A stretch of 13,041 bases of DNA, taken from contig WJIO01000360.1 in assembly GCA_014730235.1 (NCBI GenBank), positions 1-13,041 of the forward strand, written 5' to 3'. Origin of the DNA: Candidatus Poribacteria bacterium. Lineage in GTDB: Bacteria > Poribacteria > DTPJ01 > WJIO01. The notes under the pieces are model-generated. The model saw only the letters and a list, made by a program, of their open reading frames with translations, was not told the origin of the DNA and ran no database searches. Positions 3,105-13,041 of the stretch are shown one piece after another; the first letter of the stretch is position 1; every line of letters begins with the position of its first letter. The position numbers and the translations under genes are program-made.

Positions 3105-3494
3105 TTAAACCACTCCTCTGTGGTTATCCCAATCACTCCCTGCAACTAAACCCCATGCAATTATATAATCAATACCCTTTGCATATCCATCCAGATCAAC
3201 CCCACCGAGATTTCCTTCAATTGTCGCATTATTAGGTCTGCGAAAATCCGATTTAAAATATGTGGGAAAGTATGTAGTAGTATTTTGTAAAGTAAATTCT
3301 TTTAATTGGAGAAAAGTCGCGATACGCCAGCCGCTACCAGCCCTGTCAAAGGCCAAAGGCATAATGACTTTATTATTTTCGATTAAGTCAAACCCTGACG
3401 TATAAACCTTCACTTCATCCGAAAGCTTTTTAATATAATAGCAGGCATGGACAATATAAAAACAGGATGTTAAAGCCAGGGAATGATAATCTAC
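3105..3494 (-). pseudogene. Truncated duplicate of the C-terminal part of the GT-C-like protein
   Basis: Codons from 3494 to the TAA at 3107-3105 encode a decayed copy of roughly residues 358-488 of the intact protein at 3534-5081. Matching landmarks: a last membrane helix with YIVHACYY (copy: YVVHMSYY), VYTSG (VYNSG), GWRI (SWRI), TYFPTYFKSDFRRP (DYFPTIFKPDFHRP), and IDYIIAWGLVAGSD (IDYVLTWAMVPGSD). It lacks the whole N-terminal membrane region and an internal segment of about 12 residues (the GYYGYKRG loop). No good start or RBS is seen: homology begins right after an in-frame TAA (3497-3495), only about 40 bases past the intact gene's stop. In-frame codons after the TAA (about 3104-3069, ending ILRRF) resemble the paralog's terminal KIFRR, suggesting the stop is a later mutation. 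A tandem duplication followed by deletion is the simplest reading; expression as a small soluble domain cannot be excluded (GTG at 3413). Confidence 0.7.
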
Positions 3495-3533: not shown

Positions 3534-5081
3534 TTAGCCATCGTTTTTCCTTCTGAAAATCTTCAACTTGCCGTTTTGCTTAACCAATTCATAGAGTTCC
3601 ATCACCCGCTTTTCGATATCACTCCCGGGAACCATAGCCCATGTAAGAACATAATCTATATTATCCTTATAGACATTCAGATTTATATTGGCCTGGCCTG
3701 TATGAACTTCAGAGATCGTGGGTCTGTGGAAGTCGGGCTTAAATATTGTAGGAAAATAGTCGGTGCCGCCTGCCTCATAATTAATCAAATTTATACATCC
3801 TCGCTTATATCCATAATATCCTGGAGTATGTGTAAAAACACCGATCCGCCAGCTTTTACCGATATAATCAAAACACAAAGGTAGCAGAACAGTATTTCTC
3901 TCCACAGAATCACAACCGGAATTATATACCTCTATTTCCTCATTTATTATTTTATGGTAATAACTCATGTGGACAACATAAATAACAGCCAGAGAAATAA
4001 TAACTCCTACTAAAATCCACCTTAAAAACTTGGGCATATTCCAGCTAAACCAAGGGATAATTATCATAAAGGGAAACATAGCCAGTCTTGTCTTAATAAA
4101 TCCCCCACCGGACATGCCATCAGGAGCTTTAATGTATATAACAAAAAACACCCCGCAAAGTATAAAAATCAGATCTTTTCTGGATATTCGCAAACCTAGC
4201 CGCCAGTTTTCCTTCAACACATGATCCCGCACCAGAGAATAAAGTAAAAGGACAAGGAAAATCACATTTGTTATCTTGCCTAATATAATCTGGCTTTCGC
4301 TGTGAAAGGCCAGGGATTCGTTGCGGGTAAAATATTCCCACAATCGGCTTAATGTCCAGGCCCCGGGCACAGGTGGGGTATCTCTGGTAAGAACGTAGTA
4401 TAAAGTCAGACCACCCGACGGAATCATACAGACAAGACTAAAAAGCGATTGTTTCCACTTGGAGGGCCTGAAAAAAACAACTGCGCCAACTCCAATGCAA
4501 AAAGCCGCCATTACCAGGGGAAGGGGATGGCAAAAATACAATATCAAAAACAAAATACCAAGCACAACCGCATTTTTTACTCCAAAATCATCAAACCGCC
4601 GCCACCAGTACCCCAGCACCAGCATAAACATACCAAATCCCAGGGAAAAATTGTAAAACCCCATCAAAGATATATAATTATAAATAAAGAAAAAAGCCAG
4701 AAAAGCCAGAGGTATTCTTCCTTTACCTACACTGTTCACAAAATAGAGGGCGGAAAAGGCCATAAGTATAACATATCCCGTTAGTAAAAGCTTTTCCGAT
4801 ACCAACGGCGGAACAACATACATCATCAGCATCATAAAAACATGTGACGCCCAATTAGGTACTGGGGCTTTTCTTATATCATAATACTTGCTGAATTCGT
4901 ATTCGGGATTATTATAATTCTTGAGAATAAATGAGTTATATATATGGCTGGGCCCATCCTGGGATGGAAAATATTTAAATATCCATATAGGAAGTATATA
5001 AATCAATACCAGAATCAAAAATGCAATAATCCAGGTATCTCTAAATAAAGCCCTGGATGGAAGAAAATGTTTTATTTTCAT
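3534..5081 (-). CDS. Polytopic membrane protein, GT-C-like (function unproven)
   Basis: A 515-residue protein with about 9-10 hydrophobic segments (18-37, 78-93, 96-115, 123-140, 143-160, 171-185, 188-204, 213-231, 268-284, 303-317, 332-347, 353-371) followed by a soluble C-terminal domain of about 140 residues (375-515). The first outer loop after TM1 carries the acidic motif FPSQDGPSH (38-46). An Asp in this position is the usual catalytic or metal site of GT-C glycosyltransferases that use polyprenyl-phosphate sugars, so a role in envelope glycan or glycoprotein synthesis is plausible, but no diagnostic motif proves it. I chose ATG 5081: the longer TTG frame from 5108 would start inside the terminator stem at 5100-5126. 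The chosen ATG lacks a visible Shine-Dalgarno and lies only 19 bases after the terminator stem, so how this gene is transcribed and translated is not obvious. A truncated copy of its C-terminal domain follows about 40 bases downstream. Confidence 0.75.
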   Translation of the reverse strand: MKIKHFLPSRALFRDTWIIAFLILVLIYILPIWIFKYFPSQDGPSHIYNSFILKNYNNPEYEFSKYYDIRKAPVPNWASHVFMMLMMYVVPPLVSEKLLLTGYVILMAFSALYFVNSVGKGRIPLAFLAFFFIYNYISLMGFYNFSLGFGMFMLVLGYWWRRFDDFGVKNAVVLGILFLILYFCHPLPLVMAAFCIGVGAVVFFRPSKWKQSLFSLVCMIPSGGLTLYYVLTRDTPPVPGAWTLSRLWEYFTRNESLAFHSESQIILGKITNVIFLVLLLYSLVRDHVLKENWRLGLRISRKDLIFILCGVFFVIYIKAPDGMSGGGFIKTRLAMFPFMIIIPWFSWNMPKFLRWILVGVIISLAVIYVVHMSYYHKIINEEIEVYNSGCDSVERNTVLLPLCFDYIGKSWRIGVFTHTPGYYGYKRGCINLINYEAGGTDYFPTIFKPDFHRPTISEVHTGQANINLNVYKDNIDYVLTWAMVPGSDIEKRVMELYELVKQNGKLKIFRRKNDG

Positions 5082-5099
5082 AGCATTGATCAAATAAAA

Positions 5100-5126
5100 A
5101 AGGCACAAGCAAATACCTTGTGCCTT
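5100..5126 (-). terminator. Intrinsic terminator after the ABC ATPase gene
   Basis: Perfect 10-bp stem AAGGCACAAG (5100-5109) / CTTGTGCCTT (5117-5126) with a 7-base loop. On the minus strand it is followed at once by TTTTTTATTT, a good U-tract. It sits 24 bases past the ATPase stop and just upstream of the next gene's ATG. Confidence 0.88.
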
Positions 5127-5150: not shown

Positions 5151-5960
5151 TTATGCCTCTTCGCCTTCCAGAATACCCACGGCCAGGTCCATATCGCTTC
5201 GAGCCACGATCCTGTCCACCCTTCCGTCTCGAATCCAGAATATGCGGTCAGAAACGTCAAGCATTTTTAGGTCGTGAGTAGCAGAGATAATTGTAACGCC
5301 GTTTTCCTTGTTCAACCTTTTGAGAAGGCTGATAATCTCTCTACCCGTATTAAGGTCAAGGTTTCCCGTAGGCTCATCGGCCAGCACAATCGCAGGATCA
5401 TTGGCCAATGCCCGGGCAATGGCCACACGCTGCTGCTGACCACCCGAAAGTTCAAGCGGTTTATGCTGAATTCGGTCTCCAAGTCCCACCATAGTAAGAA
5501 GGTCAACGGCCTTTTCGATACTCTCTTCCGAGGTAACTCCGGCAAAGATCATAGGAAGTGTAACGTTTTCCAGAGCCGTCATAACTGAAATAAGGTTGAA
5601 CGACTGGAAGATATATCCTATTTTACGGCATCTCAACCATGCCAGTTCATAGGCGTCCAACTGGGCAATATCCACCTCATCAATATAAACGCGACCGTCA
5701 GTAGGCTTATCAAGGCCTCCAATCATGTTAAAAAGTGTGCTTTTACCCGAACCTGAGGGACCCATGATGGAAATATATTCCCCACGTTTAACTTCCAGGT
5801 TAATACCTCTAAGAGCTTCTACTATAACGCTGCCCATTTCATATCTTTTAATAACGTTCCTGACTCTAACGGTATTCTCTTCAGTACCTTTAATCTCGCC
5901 GCTGGTATCGTCGGCTACAGTATCTTTATTTTCTTCTTTTAATACTTCTTCCTCTGGCAT
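5151..5960 (-). CDS. ABC transporter ATP-binding protein, LolD/MacB (FtsE-like) type
   Basis: A 269-residue nucleotide-binding subunit of the family that drives FtsX-fold permeases (LolCDE, MacB, FtsEX): ATP hydrolysis in the cytoplasm moves a periplasmic stalk instead of powering a channel. All motifs are intact: Walker A GPSGSGKST (67-75), Q-loop Q119 in YIFQSFNL, signature LSGGQQQR (171-178), Walker B plus catalytic Glu in IVLADEPTG (191-199), D-loop NLD (200-202) and switch H229 in SATHD. The N-terminal 30 residues are a highly acidic extension not needed for the fold. SD GGAG (5974-5971) lies 10 bases before the ATG. It is third in line after the two-repeat protein and PqqD-like genes (133-base gap) and is closed by the terminator at 5100-5126. 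It has no membrane partner of its own unit; the FtsX permease at 9884-13041 is the natural candidate (inference). Confidence 0.93.
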   Translation of the reverse strand: MPEEEVLKEENKDTVADDTSGEIKGTEENTVRVRNVIKRYEMGSVIVEALRGINLEVKRGEYISIMGPSGSGKSTLFNMIGGLDKPTDGRVYIDEVDIAQLDAYELAWLRCRKIGYIFQSFNLISVMTALENVTLPMIFAGVTSEESIEKAVDLLTMVGLGDRIQHKPLELSGGQQQRVAIARALANDPAIVLADEPTGNLDLNTGREIISLLKRLNKENGVTIISATHDLKMLDVSDRIFWIRDGRVDRIVARSDMDLAVGILEGEEA

Positions 5961-5995
5961 CCTTTAATCACTCCATTATATATAGTTTTATATCA

Positions 5996-6024
5996 ATTAA
6001 GCTCTCTCCTTTAAGCAATTTCAA
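5996..6024 (-). promoter_or_regulatory. Weak candidate promoter before the ABC ATPase gene
   Basis: Minus strand: -35 TTGAAA (6024-6019, 5 of 6), 17 bases, -10 CTTAAT (6001-5996, 4 of 6), leading to a start about 30 bases before the ATG. The 133-base gap to the PqqD-like gene makes an internal promoter possible, but readthrough from upstream is equally likely; no strong terminator is visible in the gap. Confidence 0.3.
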
Positions 6025-6093
6025 GAAAATCTATTCAACCCTTCACTTAATAGGCAAAGCTTTTCCCCCTTAATAAGTGGATCAGAGGGATTA

Positions 6094-6537
6094 TTAACTT
6101 ATTGCTTCTATTTCTTTATCAATCTCCTCTTTGGCATCTTTAGGTACAGCAAAACCCACCATACCCCGCTTGCCTAATTTCCGAAAATATGCCATCAGAG
6201 ACATCTCCGCCTCTTTACGGGTAAGTTTGTATTTATTGCACAATGTTCTTACGATAGTATCTATGGAATTATGACCATCGCACATAGTCCATACAAAAGA
6301 ACCGACTTCATCCAGAGCAACAACCCTGGATTTTGGTAGCATAAAAATTTTGGTAATAATTTTAATCCATAAGCTATCCTTTTGAGGAACTACAAGAGAA
6401 ACTTCGCCTTTTTCGTTTTTATCCCATTTTATAAGGCTGTTCCTGACAGGATAAGACTTTAAAACATCGCTTTTGGTGAACTTAAGTCCACCCTTTTTCA
6501 TTTTTCTTCTAATAAGGAATCTACTTATCGGGTTCAT
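6094..6537 (-). CDS. PqqD-superfamily (RRE-fold) protein
   Basis: A 147-residue protein with a PqqD-type winged-helix domain at about 30-128: the core LDEVGSFVWTMCDG (75-88), then the usual helix with SIDTIVRTLCNKYKL (91-105) and a closing helix ending in KRGMVGF (123-129). PqqD domains bind leader peptides in RiPP pathways (RiPP recognition element) and also occur as stand-alone proteins of unknown role. It differs from classical PqqD (about 90 residues) by a basic N-terminal arm (1-29), an insertion after RNSLIKWDK with a beta strand (EVSLVV), and an acidic C-terminal tail. No radical-SAM enzyme, precursor peptide or pqq gene is in the window, so PQQ synthesis is not supported. Its ATG overlaps the stop of the preceding gene by 4 bases (ATGA at 6537-6534), so the two products are almost certainly made together. 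Family confident, function unknown. Confidence 0.82.
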   Translation of the reverse strand: MNPISRFLIRRKMKKGGLKFTKSDVLKSYPVRNSLIKWDKNEKGEVSLVVPQKDSLWIKIITKIFMLPKSRVVALDEVGSFVWTMCDGHNSIDTIVRTLCNKYKLTRKEAEMSLMAYFRKLGKRGMVGFAVPKDAKEEIDKEIEAIS

Positions 6538-7520
6538 TGTCCTATATTTTGTCCCTCCAGTATCGCTTCTTCAGAAATTTCTTCATCTTCTCCATGACAT
6601 TTTATACTGGAAGCAACCTGAGCCGTCAATTCACCTGCATTTTTTTTGGCTACGGCCATTATTACAAATATCCTGTTGGACTTCTTACAATGCCAAAATT
6701 GGGCAGCTATCTGTTTTCTCCTGAGCAGCTTATCAATTGCAAAAACCGGTGAAAGGGGAATATTATCTATAAATCTCTTTTCTTGTCCCAGCATCTGAAT
6801 TCTGTGATCATCTTCATCTTCTATTTCTTCAAAAGAAAAACCATATTTCTTCAAAACCTTTGCGTAGTATCCCCGAAACCATGTTTCCAGGTCTGTATCT
6901 CTTAAAGTCACATCAGCCAATCCATATCTTTCAATATCAAGGCTACGACTGCCATCAATAAAACCCAGCATCAAATACCCTGACATAAGCTTACGTTTTT
7001 CCAGTTGGTATCTACGCGGAACTTCAACCATAAGCTGATAAGCACTCCAGAAATTTGTATGTCCATCAGGATGGTCTTTTATTGATTCAAAAATTCTATT
7101 GGTAAGGGGTAAAAGAGTTTCCTTTAATCGTCCCATTATCTGAACGACAATTATTCGCTTACATTCTTTACAATGCCATATAGCCCCATTAGCCCTTACA
7201 TTTGATTTCCAGTTATAAAATAATACTTTTCTGCCTTCAGAAAATTCCTCATCCTTTATCAGGTTAGTATCCCTTTTTATTTTCAGACCTTCGGCGGTTC
7301 CTCCCAGCCTCTTTTTCATGCTCTTAAAATAACTGTCCAGAATTTTATGTAGGTCTGGGTCTTTTTCTTTTGATTTTGACCATTTTAACTCCATGCGCGG
7401 CATTTCTTCGTCATCCATGCGCACATATCCGTTGTCATAGTCTCCCGAAAGACCACCAAACTCCCAATCCGAAGGGAGTTCCATACTTATTCCTTGCCAT
7501 CCAAATTTTACCCAGTTCAT
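6534..7520 (-). CDS. Two-repeat protein of unknown function
   Basis: A 328-residue soluble protein with no signal peptide, membrane span or recognised catalytic motif. It appears to be an internal duplication of an alpha/beta unit: repeat A (about 8-148) and repeat B (about 158-308). Paired landmarks are ISMELPSDWE (11-20) with LMVEVPRRYQ (163-172); GYVRMDDE (31-38) with GYLMLGFID (181-189); a long helix with SYFKSMKKR (63-71) with GYYAKVLKKYG (217-227); and WHCKECKRIIVVQ (115-127) with WHCKKSNRIFVIM (276-288). Both repeats keep the W-H-C triplet; repeat A also has C120, giving C117-X2-C120, which repeat B lacks. The stop overlaps the PqqD-like start by 4 bases, so tight coupling and joint function are likely. 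No good SD precedes the ATG at 7520. I recall similar proteins next to PqqD-like genes in related bacteria, but no named function. Confidence 0.75.
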   Translation of the reverse strand: MNWVKFGWQGISMELPSDWEFGGLSGDYDNGYVRMDDEEMPRMELKWSKSKEKDPDLHKILDSYFKSMKKRLGGTAEGLKIKRDTNLIKDEEFSEGRKVLFYNWKSNVRANGAIWHCKECKRIIVVQIMGRLKETLLPLTNRIFESIKDHPDGHTNFWSAYQLMVEVPRRYQLEKRKLMSGYLMLGFIDGSRSLDIERYGLADVTLRDTDLETWFRGYYAKVLKKYGFSFEEIEDEDDHRIQMLGQEKRFIDNIPLSPVFAIDKLLRRKQIAAQFWHCKKSNRIFVIMAVAKKNAGELTAQVASSIKCHGEDEEISEEAILEGQNIGQ

Positions 7521-7562
7521 ATCTTTTATCTGTGAAGAAAAATGTTTAGATTATTCATCCTG

Positions 7563-7596
7563 CTCAGAATTACAAACTCATAATTGCCATTCTGAG
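7563..7596. repeat. Inverted repeat in the leader of the two-repeat gene
   Basis: Exact 8-bp arms CTCAGAAT (7563-7570) and ATTCTGAG (7589-7596) separated by 18 AT-rich bases, about 45-75 bases upstream of the ATG at 7520. It could form a modest leader hairpin. There is no T-run and no known riboswitch motif. Confidence 0.35.
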
Positions 7597-7603
7597 TAAA
7601 GTA

Positions 7604-7677
7604 GAAAATTCCCTCTCGCCCTTTTCTAAATGCGAAATTTTCATCTCCTCATTTGTAAAGGGATTAAGAGGAATTTC
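7604..7677. repeat. Degenerate REP-like intergenic element
   Basis: Two imperfect hairpin units in tandem: GAAAATT (7604-7610) pairing with AATTTTC, with a CCCTTTTCTAAA core between them, then CTCCTCATTTG with GTAAAGGG...GAGGAATTTC (to 7677). The pattern of C-rich and G-rich blocks around TTTGTAAA or TTTCTAAA is that of common dispersed intergenic repeats, here eroded to low GC. It lies in the 290-base gap between the hairpin at 7771-7806 and the two-repeat gene. Confidence 0.4.
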
Positions 7678-7710
7678 ACTGATTAAAGGAAATTTTTAAC
7701 GTTATGATAA

Positions 7711-7739
7711 ATAATTAATCGAAAATATCCCTTCGTCAA
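7711..7739 (-). promoter_or_regulatory. Weak candidate promoter for the two-repeat/PqqD/ATPase unit
   Basis: Minus strand: -35 TTGACG (7739-7734, 5 of 6), 17 bases, -10 AATTAT (7716-7711, 4 of 6), placed just after the hairpin that closes the upstream unit. It would give a leader of about 180 bases carrying the two inverted repeats at 7604-7677 and 7563-7596. Confidence 0.35.
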
Positions 7740-7770
7740 AACAGGGATAGGTAGGATTAACAAAAGCATA

Positions 7771-7806
7771 TATAAGCCTGGGGATTTGTAAATCCCCAGG
7801 CTTATA
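7771..7806 (-). terminator. Strong hairpin after the DUF6785-like gene (likely terminator)
   Basis: Perfect 17-bp arms, TATAAGCCTGGGGATTT (7771-7787) and its reverse complement (7790-7806), with a 2-base centre. It starts 4 bases after the stop codon of the minus-strand gene at 7811. The U-tract is poor (TATGCTTTTG after the stem), so it may act as an mRNA 3'-end stabiliser as well as, or instead of, a true intrinsic terminator. Confidence 0.65.
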
Positions 7807-7810
7807 AAAA

Positions 7811-9820
7811 TTAGAAGGGCTTGACAATCACCGCTTTGGACACAAGTGCAATCGCAACGGTAGCCATACTCACCAGTCCCACACCACAGCCAAAGCCAGC
7901 AGCCAGAACCGGAGTGTATCTATACCATCTCTTAAGTCCAAATTTCTTTATCATATAATACTTACCAAGCAAAGCACCAACAAGTGTCCATATATCTCTG
8001 CCGGGATCAGCACCTAAGCCGTGTAAAAATCCATAATACCACATGCTGTGACCACCGGGCAGAAGCGGATTAGCAAGCCATAAAACACCGTAAAGACCAA
8101 GGCAAGAGATCAAGCCTGTGAGAACATATTTGCCCCTTACAGCTTGTAACATCTGACTTTGACCATCCCTTAATGACGTAACCCACATACATCTTGACGT
8201 AACACTCATAGGCCATGTAACCTGTGCATGCGGATAGACGGCCGAAGGAATAGGAGCCAGCTTCCAGATAAAGTGATAAACAAGGATACCTGAAACCAGC
8301 AATATCGGCAGAGTTATCAAAGTCGCAGCAATAGAGCTGGTAAAGGTCGTACCTGTAAGCTCAAGTACTCGCCAGTGCATTGTACCTCGGCCATAGTCCT
8401 CCTGTGGAACAGGGGCAAACCAGATATCTATTTCTTCATATCTACTCAATAAGTAAGTCGCTTGCCTTAAATACGGTATTTCAAAAAGGTCTTGATTTAA
8501 TATTCCAAAAGTTCTCGCTGTAATATAAGAATTCAATGGAGTCCATAAGAAAGCAAAGAACAAAAGGAAACCCAAGGGAAACAAAGGCACAAGATAGCGA
8601 TGGAGAATCCATGTATGAATGGACATTCCCACAAACCACATACCAAGAGCCAGCCATATAGGGAAATCTCCTCGTCCCGGCGGTGTAGCAAGAGAACCAC
8701 GCTCACCAGCCTGTTTCTGTTTGGCACTCCTGAATTTAAAGAGCATAGGAACTGTAACAGCAAGACCTATAATAGCAATACAAAAAGACTTGCCCATACC
8801 AAAACTAAGCCAGAAGTCAATGTTATTGGCAAATCCGGTAGCTCGTACATCATCCCCGGGATGCCAGGAATGGAGTATTTCCAGACGATAAAGTATTTGC
8901 GGATTAAGTATAAACTGCGTAAAGGTTTCCGCAATAATTCTTGACAAAACCATAGGGAAAGGTAAAACAAATCCCGTAAGCATCGCGCTCATCTGGGTAC
9001 GAAGGGCAAACATTCCCGTAGGAGCAAAACCTTCAATGTTGGTGGTAAAGTCAATCCATGGGATCTTAAGTATCTGTATGGGTCGGCTCATCATAACACC
9101 GGTTAAAGCCGGAACACCGATATAAATAGCACCCCAAATTAATCCCAGCATGGATGCAAGACTAAACACCCTCCAGCGCCATGTTTCACGCTTTCCTGTA
9201 GTTTCTGCAAGAGCAGTAGCTCCTTGAGCAGCAACAGGAGCAAGCGGAAAAGGCAATCTTTCCAAGTCAGCGGTCATTCTGAAGAGAAAATAACCGCCGC
9301 CAATTCCTCTCATTCGTCCCAGAGTTTGCCCCATAAGCATAAGCATTATGGGCCACAACCAATCTCTGTGTATAAGGCTTCTGGTCGCCAGAGACTCAGA
9401 ACCCGGCGGTGGAACAACCCACGTGGGCACCTTGTCGGCTATTTCAAATTGCACAGCCTGAGGAGACTGTATGAAATACTGATTCCATATCATTCCACCG
9501 TAGAAATTACCAGCACCAACTGCAGCGCCTGCTAGCCCCAGGAGGATGTAGAGTTCCTGACGTCTAACGGTAGTGAAGGATCTTCGAGCAAGCTCAGTAA
9601 ACAGAATAACGGCAACCCAGGGGGCAGCCCCAGCCCCGCTTTGGCCTGCAACCAAGCTCAGATATATGGAGCCAGGCATCATAAGAAGACCGACGAACAG
9701 TGCTCCCAGAACTACTTTAAGAGTTAAGCCGGACTCGAAATTTCGGACACCGCCGTCTATGTCATACCTTTTTGCCCATGACTGCCATTCCTCAGCCATG
9801 GAAACTCTTTTTCTGGCCAT
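7811..9820 (-). CDS. DUF6785/DUF6784-type polytopic membrane protein (OPT-like)
   Basis: A 669-residue integral membrane protein with roughly 12-13 hydrophobic helices (for example 33-58, 67-80, 90-112, 153-170, 219-242, 272-298, 343-362, 386-403, 410-432, 494-516, 563-583, 636-660) and a hydrophilic, Trp/Arg-rich N-terminus. It looks like the DUF6785/DUF6784 proteins of Poribacteria, Planctomycetes and relatives. The segment RLPFPLAPVAAQGATALAE (188-206) resembles the conserved helix-entry motif of oligopeptide transporters (OPT), so a secondary transporter is plausible; substrate unknown. Start chosen at ATG 9820, not the upstream GTG 9826, because the GTG lies inside the SD GGAGG (9830-9826), which is 5 bases from the ATG. 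It lies 63 bases after the FtsX permease gene and is probably co-transcribed with it; a strong hairpin follows the stop. Family fairly sure; transport role inferred. Confidence 0.78.
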   Translation of the reverse strand: MARKRVSMAEEWQSWAKRYDIDGGVRNFESGLTLKVVLGALFVGLLMMPGSIYLSLVAGQSGAGAAPWVAVILFTELARRSFTTVRRQELYILLGLAGAAVGAGNFYGGMIWNQYFIQSPQAVQFEIADKVPTWVVPPPGSESLATRSLIHRDWLWPIMLMLMGQTLGRMRGIGGGYFLFRMTADLERLPFPLAPVAAQGATALAETTGKRETWRWRVFSLASMLGLIWGAIYIGVPALTGVMMSRPIQILKIPWIDFTTNIEGFAPTGMFALRTQMSAMLTGFVLPFPMVLSRIIAETFTQFILNPQILYRLEILHSWHPGDDVRATGFANNIDFWLSFGMGKSFCIAIIGLAVTVPMLFKFRSAKQKQAGERGSLATPPGRGDFPIWLALGMWFVGMSIHTWILHRYLVPLFPLGFLLFFAFLWTPLNSYITARTFGILNQDLFEIPYLRQATYLLSRYEEIDIWFAPVPQEDYGRGTMHWRVLELTGTTFTSSIAATLITLPILLVSGILVYHFIWKLAPIPSAVYPHAQVTWPMSVTSRCMWVTSLRDGQSQMLQAVRGKYVLTGLISCLGLYGVLWLANPLLPGGHSMWYYGFLHGLGADPGRDIWTLVGALLGKYYMIKKFGLKRWYRYTPVLAAGFGCGVGLVSMATVAIALVSKAVIVKPF

Positions 9821-9825
9821 AAACA

Positions 9826-9830
9826 CCTCC
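9826..9830 (-). promoter_or_regulatory. Shine-Dalgarno that fixes the start of the DUF6785-like gene
   Basis: Minus-strand GGAGG is followed by TGTTT and then ATG at 9820-9818. This 5-base spacing rules out the overlapping in-frame GTG at 9826 as the start. Confidence 0.8.
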
Positions 9831-9837
9831 TGTCAAT

Positions 9838-9866
9838 GGATCTATGGTCCCACCGACCTATAGACC
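9838..9866. other. Intercistronic hairpin between permease and DUF6785-like gene
   Basis: TCTATGGTC (9841-9849) pairs with GACC-t-ATAGA (9855-9864), leaving a 5-base loop and a one-base bulge; flanking GG/CC can extend it with one more bulge. It stands 8 bases upstream of the downstream gene's SD. There is no T-run, so it could tune mRNA stability or relative expression of the two genes, not stop transcription. Confidence 0.35.
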
Positions 9867-9883
9867 AGACTATATATTTATAC

Positions 9884-12800
9884 CTAACCAGCTGCCTCGG
9901 GTTCCATTGAAGCAGCGGCAACTGTCTCTCGTCTACCACGTTCATGGAACTCATTTCTGACAGCCACGTTAAATGTTCTCCAAAGTAAAAATTGCTTCCG
10001 AAGTAAGTTAAGGAATCTTCTATTAACCCGCTTCCAGGATGCTATTTCTCCGCTCTCACGATACACTCTCAGATATATCTTGTAGAGGTCTTTCTCTTCC
10101 TTCTCCTCAGCGGGAACAGTCGCCAGTTCAATCCGCTGGCTAACACCAAGGTCATAGGGAGCAAGCCATACCATCATACCGATGGTATAATCCTCCTCTC
10201 CGGAAGGTCGAGTTTTTCGCTCAAAACTGACCTGATCTGTGTAAAAATCACTGGCAGATTCATCCGCATGAGCTTCAAAATAATCCCGCATGAATATGTT
10301 GAGACCCAGAGCTTCTTCAAAAAGAACAGTAAAGGGCAGGTCAAAGTGCCATTCATCGCCATCAGGTTCCGGAAGCTTCCATTTTCTTTCAATATCGGGA
10401 ACTGCCATACGGGAAGCTTTAACAGCAGGATATATGGTTGATCCCAGAACCACCAGCATAACCACGATTGTAGAGGTAACCGTTGACATGGATGAATAAT
10501 TCAACGTCAGACCGGCCAATAATCCCCATTTAACTAATGCCCAGGCCGTAGCCTGACCGAGGAGATAACCAAGAATACCTCCGATAATGGCATAAACACA
10601 AGCCTCAGCAATAAACAGGAATGCAACATGAACAGGAGCTAATCCAACAGCACTGTAAATACCGATTTCTCTTACTCGTTCATAAACAGCACCTAGCATG
10701 GTATTCAAAACGATAAGAGCAGCAATTAATATAGGTATAAACAAATTACCCATACCGGAGAATGATGTCATACCTATTGAACTGTAAAGATAAGCATCGT
10801 TTGTCTCCATATTACCCACAAAAACGTCCAGGGCAATTCTAGGCATCAGGTCTGCCATTATCTTTTCCAACTGTTTTTCTGCCGTCATGCTTACCTGTTC
10901 TTCTGAACCTGTCATTCTGACAGCAACCGACTTCAGGTTTCCGCCCATATTCATAACAACCGAATACGGCAGAATAGCGATAGTCTGCGGTGTAAGATGC
11001 AGATACTTCTGCAACTCACCTTCCAGCGTCTCACCACCCATCTGAAGACCTCTGGCATGCTGTTGCTGCATCAAAAGATAGTCAACCGGCGTCAGTTCCT
11101 CGCCGTCCAGGTCTTTTATATCCTTGAAGCTTGTATCCAGAACACCCACGATGGTATAACTTCCTCCACCGATTTTTAACTCCATACTCCCTACATCACT
11201 TTCGGTAATACTAAGAGCCGAGGCCATTCCAGCGGGTAATATAGCACCATAGGTCTCTCCGGGTTTAAACCATCTTCCCCACTTCAGTGACCTGTCTATT
11301 CCAGTAACCCCGGGCTCTGTTTCTGACATACCCAGAAGCGCAGTAGCTGTAAACTTTTTACCGTTATCAGCCACAAGCTCGATAAAAGATTGGTCACCAA
11401 GAGAAGATGAGAAATACCAGGCCCGGGCAGAAACTGGGTTCTGCACCTCCATTGTACCGCCATCATCTAACTCCAGGGTAGTATTTTCCAGGTCATTCCT
11501 AATAGAGGAATAAAGCGGTTCCTCAAGGGAATGCCAGTATTGGTTTCTTATAAGCATTCCGGTATAAGCAGGTCTTACCGATGGAAGTCTGGTTTTATTG
11601 CTCTGCATGAATGTTCGTACAGATGTAAATGATATAACGGTAAATGTCAATATAACCAGAGTTCCGCAGGTTAATATAGTTCTGCTCTTACGCTTTCTCA
11701 TATTGGATATACCAAGAGCAAAAGCAGCGGCACTGGCCGAAAGTCTGCCCACATCAGCTTTATAAACCTTGGATGTCTCTTGTTTAATACGCTCCAATTG
11801 TTCCTCAAACTTGCGTATGATAATAGATATAACAATGGCGGATAACGCAAGAACAACGAAAGCCAGAAGTATAATCAGTGGAGTAACCGTAATCTGGAAA
11901 GCAGGATGTACCTGGGAAAGCAGGAAAAATACCAGCAGGAATATTATAAACGTAGCGGCAACCTGCTTGTTTACATTGGGGAAGTGGAAAATCAACCTTT
12001 CCATGAAATATGCAAAGGGCATCAATATTGCCAGGTAGAACATAACACCCTTGATAACGTCGTTACCTGTTCCCTTTATGTCAGGATATGCCCTGGATTC
12101 ATATCCCCAGGCAGCTCTGGCCAGCTTCAAAGCCTCATCATACTTCTCCGCACCCAAAAGCATTTGAGCTTTTGTAAGATAGACATTGGCCATCTCATGA
12201 AGCCTGTCAAGCCTGTCATTGCTGATTCCATAACGTTTATAAAGATCTCCACGACTTTCATCCAAAGCCCACATATCTTTAACAACAACATATGGGGTAA
12301 CTCTTATAGAACCATTTTCCCGAACAATAAATCCTTTACCAGTATAAAGTGTAGGTTTCTCTTCAGCCTCTTCGTCTGTCGCATCGGCCTTTACCAGAAG
12401 TAATCTCTTACCTAGAAGACCTGCACCCATACCAACTTTTATTCTGGTGCCCGGTTCTGAATAAATCAACGCAATTGGCTCAACAGAAGAAACCATCGGC
12501 TGAGGCCAGGGCTTTGAGTAACCATACTGCATAGGTTCACCATCCGTAAGAGCATCATAAACCGAAAGCTCTTTCAGAGTCTGGTAATAACGCTGATCCA
12601 CAAGGTCATATATAGTGGTGCTGACACACGGGAAAACAACAACGCGAGCACCTTTTCTGCGAGTATTTATTGGTATCTGGTTACTAAATATCTTCGCACC
12701 ATAAACACCCTGGTCTGGCGCATATGCTATATCTCCGGATTCTGAATCTATCTTATAAGCCTCAACAGTCTGACGACCTCCAGGCCTGTAAACCGCACGT

Positions 12801-13041
12801 CCTTCCATACCTAAACCTTCAAGCTGGAACTTACCCTTACCATCTGACATGGTGAAAAGATCGCCTCGAACACCCATAAGCGTCTTATGTCTGCGCCTGA
12901 TAGTCATTATAGTATTAGGAACCGGAGTGTTGGGTATAGGACTTTCCTTTGCGTCAAATTCCACAACATTACCATGAAGTGTACAATAATAGTTACCAAC
13001 CTTCGCCGCAGTTGGCATCTCAGGATCTCTCAGTATCTGAA
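9884..13041 (-). CDS. Very large FtsX/MacB-type ABC permease with extra domains (5' partial)
   Basis: At least 1,051 codons; the frame stays open to the right edge. The codons before the first ATG (13018) read as plausible protein (ILRDPE), so I treat the N-terminus as outside the window. Numbering from that ATG: a beta-rich carboxypeptidase-regulatory-like region (about 10-130); a second soluble region with a helical hairpin (270-310, EKYDEALKLARAAW, TPR-like); three or four helices (324-401); then the MacB/FtsX core with TM 446-468, a large extracytoplasmic domain (about 470-750) and C-terminal helices (757-778, 795-820, 845-866) with the hallmark RVREIGIYSAVGL (781-793); finally an unusual soluble C-terminal domain (about 880-1030). 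Typical FtsX/LolC/MacB permeases are 300-650 residues and lack the front and back modules. It has no ATP-binding domain; the ATPase at 5151-5960 is the likely partner. Probably works at the cytoplasmic membrane as a mechanotransmission or export permease; substrate unknown. Confidence 0.88.
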   Translation of the reverse strand, partial: QILRDPEMPTAAKVGNYYCTLHGNVVEFDAKESPIPNTPVPNTIMTIRRRHKTLMGVRGDLFTMSDGKGKFQLEGLGMEGRAVYRPGGRQTVEAYKIDSESGDIAYAPDQGVYGAKIFSNQIPINTRRKGARVVVFPCVSTTIYDLVDQRYYQTLKELSVYDALTDGEPMQYGYSKPWPQPMVSSVEPIALIYSEPGTRIKVGMGAGLLGKRLLLVKADATDEEAEEKPTLYTGKGFIVRENGSIRVTPYVVVKDMWALDESRGDLYKRYGISNDRLDRLHEMANVYLTKAQMLLGAEKYDEALKLARAAWGYESRAYPDIKGTGNDVIKGVMFYLAILMPFAYFMERLIFHFPNVNKQVAATFIIFLLVFFLLSQVHPAFQITVTPLIILLAFVVLALSAIVISIIIRKFEEQLERIKQETSKVYKADVGRLSASAAAFALGISNMRKRKSRTILTCGTLVILTFTVISFTSVRTFMQSNKTRLPSVRPAYTGMLIRNQYWHSLEEPLYSSIRNDLENTTLELDDGGTMEVQNPVSARAWYFSSSLGDQSFIELVADNGKKFTATALLGMSETEPGVTGIDRSLKWGRWFKPGETYGAILPAGMASALSITESDVGSMELKIGGGSYTIVGVLDTSFKDIKDLDGEELTPVDYLLMQQQHARGLQMGGETLEGELQKYLHLTPQTIAILPYSVVMNMGGNLKSVAVRMTGSEEQVSMTAEKQLEKIMADLMPRIALDVFVGNMETNDAYLYSSIGMTSFSGMGNLFIPILIAALIVLNTMLGAVYERVREIGIYSAVGLAPVHVAFLFIAEACVYAIIGGILGYLLGQATAWALVKWGLLAGLTLNYSSMSTVTSTIVVMLVVLGSTIYPAVKASRMAVPDIERKWKLPEPDGDEWHFDLPFTVLFEEALGLNIFMRDYFEAHADESASDFYTDQVSFERKTRPSGEEDYTIGMMVWLAPYDLGVSQRIELATVPAEEKEEKDLYKIYLRVYRESGEIASWKRVNRRFLNLLRKQFLLWRTFNVAVRNEFHERGRRETVAAASMEPEAAG

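Follow-up and report, generated by a model that had tools for sequence, protein, structure and literature searches.

A conserved and apparently undescribed five-gene membrane system of Poribacteria with the features of a Type VII ABC transporter

The 13,041-nucleotide stretch analysed here (the window) is the entire contig WJIO01000360.1 of the 5.5-Mb draft genome of a Candidatus Poribacteria bacterium (GCA_014730235.1; G000:C304 in our numbering). Five of its genes, encoding a giant FtsX-type permease, an OPT-like membrane protein, a protein composed of two repeats, a PqqD-like protein and an ATP-binding cassette (ABC) ATPase, form what is, by sequence comparison, a real, conserved and apparently undescribed membrane system; we found no paper describing it in the open-access PMC literature. 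The best overall explanation, to which we assign a probability of roughly 0.55, is that they encode a new Type VII ABC (FtsX/MacB-superfamily) inner-membrane system that acts at the periplasmic face and probably has OPT-superfamily partners. Transporters of Type VII use ATP to do work in the periplasm, typically without passing a substrate over the inner membrane, and it is their partners that define them (PMC12646458, PMC5985334).

The five open reading frames (ORFs) all lie on the minus strand and have the domains that a first-pass annotation of this DNA had described. The features are as follows.

9884..13041, minus strand: giant FtsX/MacB-type permease (PERM), C-terminal ~1,050 codons only (ORF open to the window edge; Pfam FtsX; hydropathy)
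11123..11680, minus strand: sub-threshold match to a MacB-like extracytoplasmic domain in PERM (Pfam MacB_PCD 5.4e-5, 24.0 bits against a cut-off of 27)
10406..10741, minus strand: FtsX C-terminal membrane domain of PERM (Pfam FtsX 1.3e-13; hydropathy segments)
9887..10393, minus strand: cytoplasmic C-terminal domain of PERM, conserved across three phyla and matching no recognised family
7811..9826, minus strand: OPT-like membrane protein, probable remote member of the OPT superfamily (profile comparison with hhalign)
7771..7806, minus strand: 16-bp perfect hairpin 3′ of the OPT-like gene, terminator-like, between the two units (fold z -6.6)
6534..7520, minus strand: two-repeat protein, predicted tandem of PsbP/Mog1-like domains (residues ~1–153 and ~162–310; AlphaFold2, fold matches, repeats)
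6094..6537, minus strand: PqqD-like protein with a conserved ~60-residue N-terminal extension (Pfam PqqD 5.3e-12; PDB 3g2b 9.4e-6; alignment)
5151..5960, minus strand: putative Type VII ABC ATPase (motifs; Pfam ABC_tran 4.4e-35; tree)
5100..5126, minus strand: intrinsic-terminator-like site 3′ of the ATPase gene (terminator scan)

The order permease–OPT-like–two-repeat–PqqD-like–ATPase, on a single strand, was retained at 20/20 Poribacteria loci from eight further families, as far as the contigs reach. When neighbouring ORFs of at least 120 amino acids were clustered, the five genes recurred in eight or nine of the nine families, and no other gene family did so in more than two. The permease and OPT-like genes were linked at all 18 loci that reach the permease. 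The two-repeat gene was present in 57 of the 58 genomes sampled; in the remaining one (G027) a PqqD-profile search was also empty, which reflects either absence or an assembly gap. A scan of the genome contigs with a single two-repeat protein sequence gave no match. One family has a second OPT-like gene at three loci, and insertions occur at some loci; DNA-methyltransferase genes stand between the permease and OPT-like genes at two of them (L045:10377-12587, L041:5634-7289). No ATPase gene was seen upstream of the permease in relatives, nor in this genome as far as the contig with the upstream part of the gene (C188, see below) extends. The neighbourhood comparison that the first-pass annotation had proposed thus bears out its multi-gene membrane system: the genes are not scattered in relatives, and, over the same extent, no dedicated ATPase of the permease was seen beyond the edge.

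The OPT-like protein has relatives in Desulfobacterota (20/297 genomes, one match each) and Latescibacterota (58/64 genomes, up to 12 matches each); the alignment search examined the best 80 of 281 relatives, and further phyla may carry the system. Their loci encode the same permease, with an M28-like domain and FtsX, and usually a DUF6785 protein. Linkage of the permease and OPT-like genes was seen at 13/16 Desulfobacterota and 13/14 Latescibacterota loci, and DUF6785 was present at 15/16 and 13/14, respectively. All nine Desulfobacterota loci in which a small FtsX permease and the ATPase were found had the order small FtsX–ATPase–permease–DUF6785–OPT-like, and one Latescibacterota locus (L184) has all seven genes, as DUF6785–permease–OPT-like–two-repeat–PqqD-like–small FtsX–ATPase. 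The core outside Poribacteria consists of the permease, the OPT-like protein and DUF6785, plus the small FtsX permease and the ATPase in Desulfobacterota. The two-repeat/PqqD-like pair, found at 3/16 Desulfobacterota and 2/14 Latescibacterota loci, is accessory there. A glycosyltransferase-family-28-like gene precedes the operon at some Desulfobacterota loci (L175:18518-19690; L177:236-1396), a hint of an envelope-glycan link.

The ATPase is of the Type VII type by sequence, with intact Walker A, Q-loop, signature, Walker B and H-switch motifs. Its best NCBIfam match was LolD, at 232.9 bits against a cut-off of 307.75. In a tree, the Poribacteria system ATPases clustered with those of Desulfobacterota and Latescibacterota (91/98), apart from a Poribacteria paralogue and two LolD-type outgroups; the root is unsure because these two outgroup ATPases were the only ones and both sit on very long branches. 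In Desulfobacterota the orthologous gene sits directly between those of the small FtsX and giant permeases. On this gene order and the tree, the ATPase and the giant permease belong together, and the ATPase is not a spare LolD. The two are in this sense complementary, as had been noted. A second conserved pair, a small four-helix FtsX permease and a paralogue of the window ATPase, occurs in 22/24 Poribacteria genomes (L191:6334-7800 on contig C326 of this genome; L198-L218).

The permease in the window is cut by the contig end: its full-length relatives have 2,330–2,530 codons against 1,050 here, and we predict a whole protein of about 2,400 residues. A search for M28 located the remaining N-terminal 1,374 codons in the same genome (C188, 4119-8241; L190), in a frame that runs off that contig. 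This frame stops at ...SSILIQ(I) and the window frame opens with QILRDPEM, and relatives are continuous across the join, which rests on homology because the contig ends have just nine bases in common. On C188 the frame covers a signal-like segment, the M28-like domain and what follows that domain. In full-length relatives the order is an N-terminal hydrophobic signal-like segment, M28, LysM repeats and then FtsX (Pfam; hydropathy). The predicted protein has a ~1,600-residue region ahead of its main membrane part and helices of the FtsX/MacB type in a 3+4 arrangement. Pfam FtsX and hydropathy gave the Type VII layout of one helix, a large outer domain and then three helices; some 7–8 membrane segments were counted in all, and three or four, varying by copy, follow the outer domain. 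MacB_PCD exceeded its cut-off in one relative (L051, 36.2 bits). Besides the LysM repeats, Poribacteria permeases have a middle region that is charged and looks rich in helices; a Desulfobacterota permease ~800 residues shorter, the single one put through Pfam, gave no LysM match. The cytoplasmic C-terminal domain matched nothing in PDB or Pfam, and profile comparison did not identify it as a further PsbP-like domain (≤0.7%).

The M28 match was above the Pfam cut-off of 21.3 bits both in relatives (31.4–39.4 bits) and in this genome (32.7 bits). We aligned the 22 system domains picked up by the motif of our script, from three phyla, using a genuine M28 protein encoded by this genome as the reference. 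The Glu pair (GEE), taken as catalytic from what is known of M28 peptidases in general, was gone in 22/22, mostly replaced by GH or AH and another residue, and the His that we likewise take to bind metal was Tyr or Phe in 19/22. Judged by these substitutions, the M28-like domain is catalytically degenerate in all three phyla.

No Pfam family, OPT (PF03169) and DUF6785 (PF20581) included, matched the OPT-like protein above cut-off, and a PDB search at E≤1 returned no sequence relatives. By hhalign, it aligned with DUF6785 at 90.8% over 574 columns, a value that stood at 6.6% with few sequences and was reached with 53 and 38 sequences; DUF6785 aligned with OPT at 84.6%. Reversed and FtsX controls gave at most 2.7%. 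The OPT-like protein is thus probably a remote OPT superfamily member that forms a family of its own. DUF6785 itself is greatly expanded in Poribacteria, with 7 to at least 40 matches per genome in 24/24 genomes and none in 14 control genomes (G000 and relatives, e.g. L143, L221-L230); judged by eye, the neighbours of these genes include oxidoreductase-like and sulfatase-like genes. One Latescibacterota OPT-like protein has a C-terminal PDZ domain (L169:8323-11541).

The two-repeat and PqqD-like genes were both present or both absent at all 50 tabulated loci, and in the window the PqqD-like start overlaps the two-repeat stop by 4 bases (6534-6537), which agrees with the earlier view of a coupled pair of uncharacterised proteins, one with a PqqD fold. 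The halves of the two-repeat protein aligned at 90.7% (reversed control, 0.1%), as its name implies. It matched no Pfam family above cut-off, had no PDB sequence relatives at E≤1 and showed no hydrophobic helix in the hydropathy scan. Its AlphaFold2 model (predicted local distance difference test, pLDDT, 85.7) matched the folds of PsbP (Z 14.2), Mog1 (11.8), the Eag chaperone SciW (10.4) and DcrB (10.2), and that of LpqN; the N half reached Z 14.2 and the C half, more weakly, 8.8. In this model two PsbP/Mog1-like domains stand in tandem; the fold is shared at ~10% identity and carries no functional implication. For the PqqD-like protein, membership of its fold family is clear, yet it falls below every NCBIfam cut-off (PQQ_PqqD, 27.6 against 46 bits; other models were also short). 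Among the neighbours, no radical S-adenosylmethionine or other maturase of ribosomally synthesized and post-translationally modified peptides (RiPPs) or of pyrroloquinoline quinone (PQQ), and no precursor, emerged as a recurrent family; short precursors would escape this clustering because of its length limit. On these results the system does not look like a recognised RiPP or PQQ locus, as had been remarked. The accompanying idea that the PqqD-like protein recognises a substrate or leader peptide found no support in these scores, nor in any additional conserved gene beside it.

The hairpin after the OPT-like gene and the terminator-like site after the ATPase gene fit the two adjacent units proposed earlier, permease–OPT-like and two-repeat–PqqD-like–ATPase; the terminator scan overall gave 4 sites against 4.7 in shuffles, that is, no excess over chance. 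The interval between the PqqD-like and ATPase genes contains a dispersed repeat of ~87 bp (6010-6096), with about a dozen similar copies elsewhere in the genome. At 3105-3413, a short ORF resembles, by eye, the C-terminal end of the adjoining 524-residue membrane protein (3534-5108) and is perhaps a decayed duplicate.

By analogy with other Type VII ABC transporters, the ATPase would drive the permease, either as a homodimer or with the small FtsX permease, and move its giant ectodomain by mechanotransmission. The loss of peptidase residues suggests binding instead of cutting, and the dead M28 domain may thus act in the periplasm to capture a substrate that is peptide-like or linked to a lipid. 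The steady company of OPT-superfamily proteins suggests that membrane transport is involved; in the same complex, they could pass the substrate through the membrane or be gated by the complex. The PsbP-tandem/PqqD-like pair would be a cytosolic accessory module, an adaptor or regulator, that Poribacteria always keep. A bolder version, which we put forward tentatively and hold to be possible but doubtful, is a hybrid transporter in which the Type VII machine directly powers or gates the OPT-superfamily proteins, with the dead M28 domain as periplasmic substrate receptor. The most invariant linkage, that of the permease with the OPT-like gene (and with DUF6785 outside Poribacteria), is as expected of such a joint complex.

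Several observations weigh against a Type VII system with OPT-superfamily partners. Three Desulfobacterota loci (L176, L178, L179) have the OPT-like gene without a permease nearby, DUF6785 lies outside the system locus in Poribacteria, and there the small FtsX permease sits at another locus with a paralogous ATPase. The direct alignment of the OPT-like protein with OPT was weak (39.5%, with an OPT set of four sequences), and its assigned fold rests on profile comparison because the AlphaFold model failed (pLDDT 36). The permease topology comes from a simple hydropathy scan.

Some of the same evidence could be read as a LolCDE-like machine for lipoproteins or envelope export, with the PqqD-like protein as the cytosolic recognition factor for a leader peptide or substrate: LolD is the closest profile of the ATPase, the FtsX part of the permease is of the MacB/LolCE type, and the PqqD fold is matched. 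We regard this as unlikely, since the LolD and LolC/E cut-offs were missed, the same genome has a separate full-length FtsX-type permease adjoining a LolD-like ATPase (C326), the PqqD-like gene is missing at most loci outside Poribacteria and no other gene is conserved near it; moreover, PqqD and RiPP recognition element profiles also match helix-turn-helix proteins outside RiPP loci (PMC7470986). Of the function first suggested, envelope export or lipoprotein handling, the latter stays as just one option. Unlikely to the same degree is an FtsEX-like role, in which ATP hydrolysis would move the ectodomain, with its LysM repeats, charged helical region and dead hydrolase-like domain, to activate cell-wall enzymes. 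FtsEX is itself a Type VII system (PMC12646458), and the LysM repeats and middle region of Poribacteria permeases suit this role; the shorter Desulfobacterota permease that gave no LysM match does not, and the role would leave unexplained both the OPT-superfamily partners and the many OPT-like paralogues of most Latescibacterota genomes.

The hairpin between the units, and the OPT-like genes that have no permease, would also suit two unrelated systems that happen to be adjacent, one a Type VII ABC transporter and the other an importer of the OPT type with regulators. That linkage of the permease and OPT-like genes persists in three phyla and at several paralogous loci of one genome (G412; L165, L166, L168, L169), and that the OPT-like gene of the window belongs to the unit of the permease and not of the ATPase, make such a coincidence improbable. 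We consider it highly improbable that the permease is a sensing or defence protein whose cytoplasmic C-terminal domain reads a nucleotide signal. The PADLOC model CARF_m8--CARF_LolE_TM matched its residues 277–904 at 1.3e-53, and 2 of 12 isolated C-terminal domains matched weakly, at best 1.1e-5; however, the match lies mostly in the membrane part, the model also matched in 13/14 control genomes, like a generic FtsX match, and near-universal presence at a conserved position in Poribacteria is unlike a defence gene. The strong match to the membrane half recurred at L052, L132 and L184.

Few Type VII ABC systems have a known function, and the partner set found here is apparently undescribed. The system occurs almost throughout one phylum, is widespread in a second and has a patchy distribution in a third. 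If OPT-superfamily proteins do belong to the complex, an ATP-driven mechanotransmitter would be joined to a transport family that, to our knowledge, is not known to be ABC-powered. DUF6785, the new OPT-like family and a PqqD-like protein outside RiPP loci also gain testable partners.

Compared with known proteins, the membrane half of PERM, which takes in the stretch ahead of FtsX, has CARF_m8 LolE_TM (PDLC01991/PDLC01990) as its best library match; that name implies a CARF domain, and none was identified here, and the M28-like ectodomain and the gene set lie outside that model. The OPT-like protein appears by profile remotely homologous, over most of its length, to DUF6785/DUF6784 membrane proteins and OPT transporters, but neither Pfam model matches it. 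Both halves of the two-repeat protein have the predicted fold of the PsbP/Mog1/DcrB-Eag/LpqN superfamily, the second half less surely, but unlike those proteins it is tandemly duplicated and paired with a PqqD-like gene. With LolCDE, MacAB-TolC and FtsEX the system shares the FtsX membrane domain and the LolD/MacB-type ATPase, whereas the LolD, LolC/E (22.8 against 362.45 bits), MacB (221.7 and 37.1 against 966 bits), FtsE and FtsX equivalog cut-offs were all missed, ATPase and permease are separate genes, in contrast to MacB, and the giant M28-like ectodomain, an extra three-helix block and the other neighbours set it apart. YbbAP-TesA of Escherichia coli (PMC12646458) likewise pairs a separately encoded Type VII ATPase with a large permease that works with a periplasmic hydrolase-like module. 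In our system, that module is fused to the permease and lacks catalytic residues, the ATPase is below the YbbA cut-off (213.3 against 336 bits), the permease has about 7–8 predicted segments (some seven membrane helices and the signal-like segment) instead of ten helices, and the OPT-superfamily, PsbP-like and PqqD-like neighbours are new.

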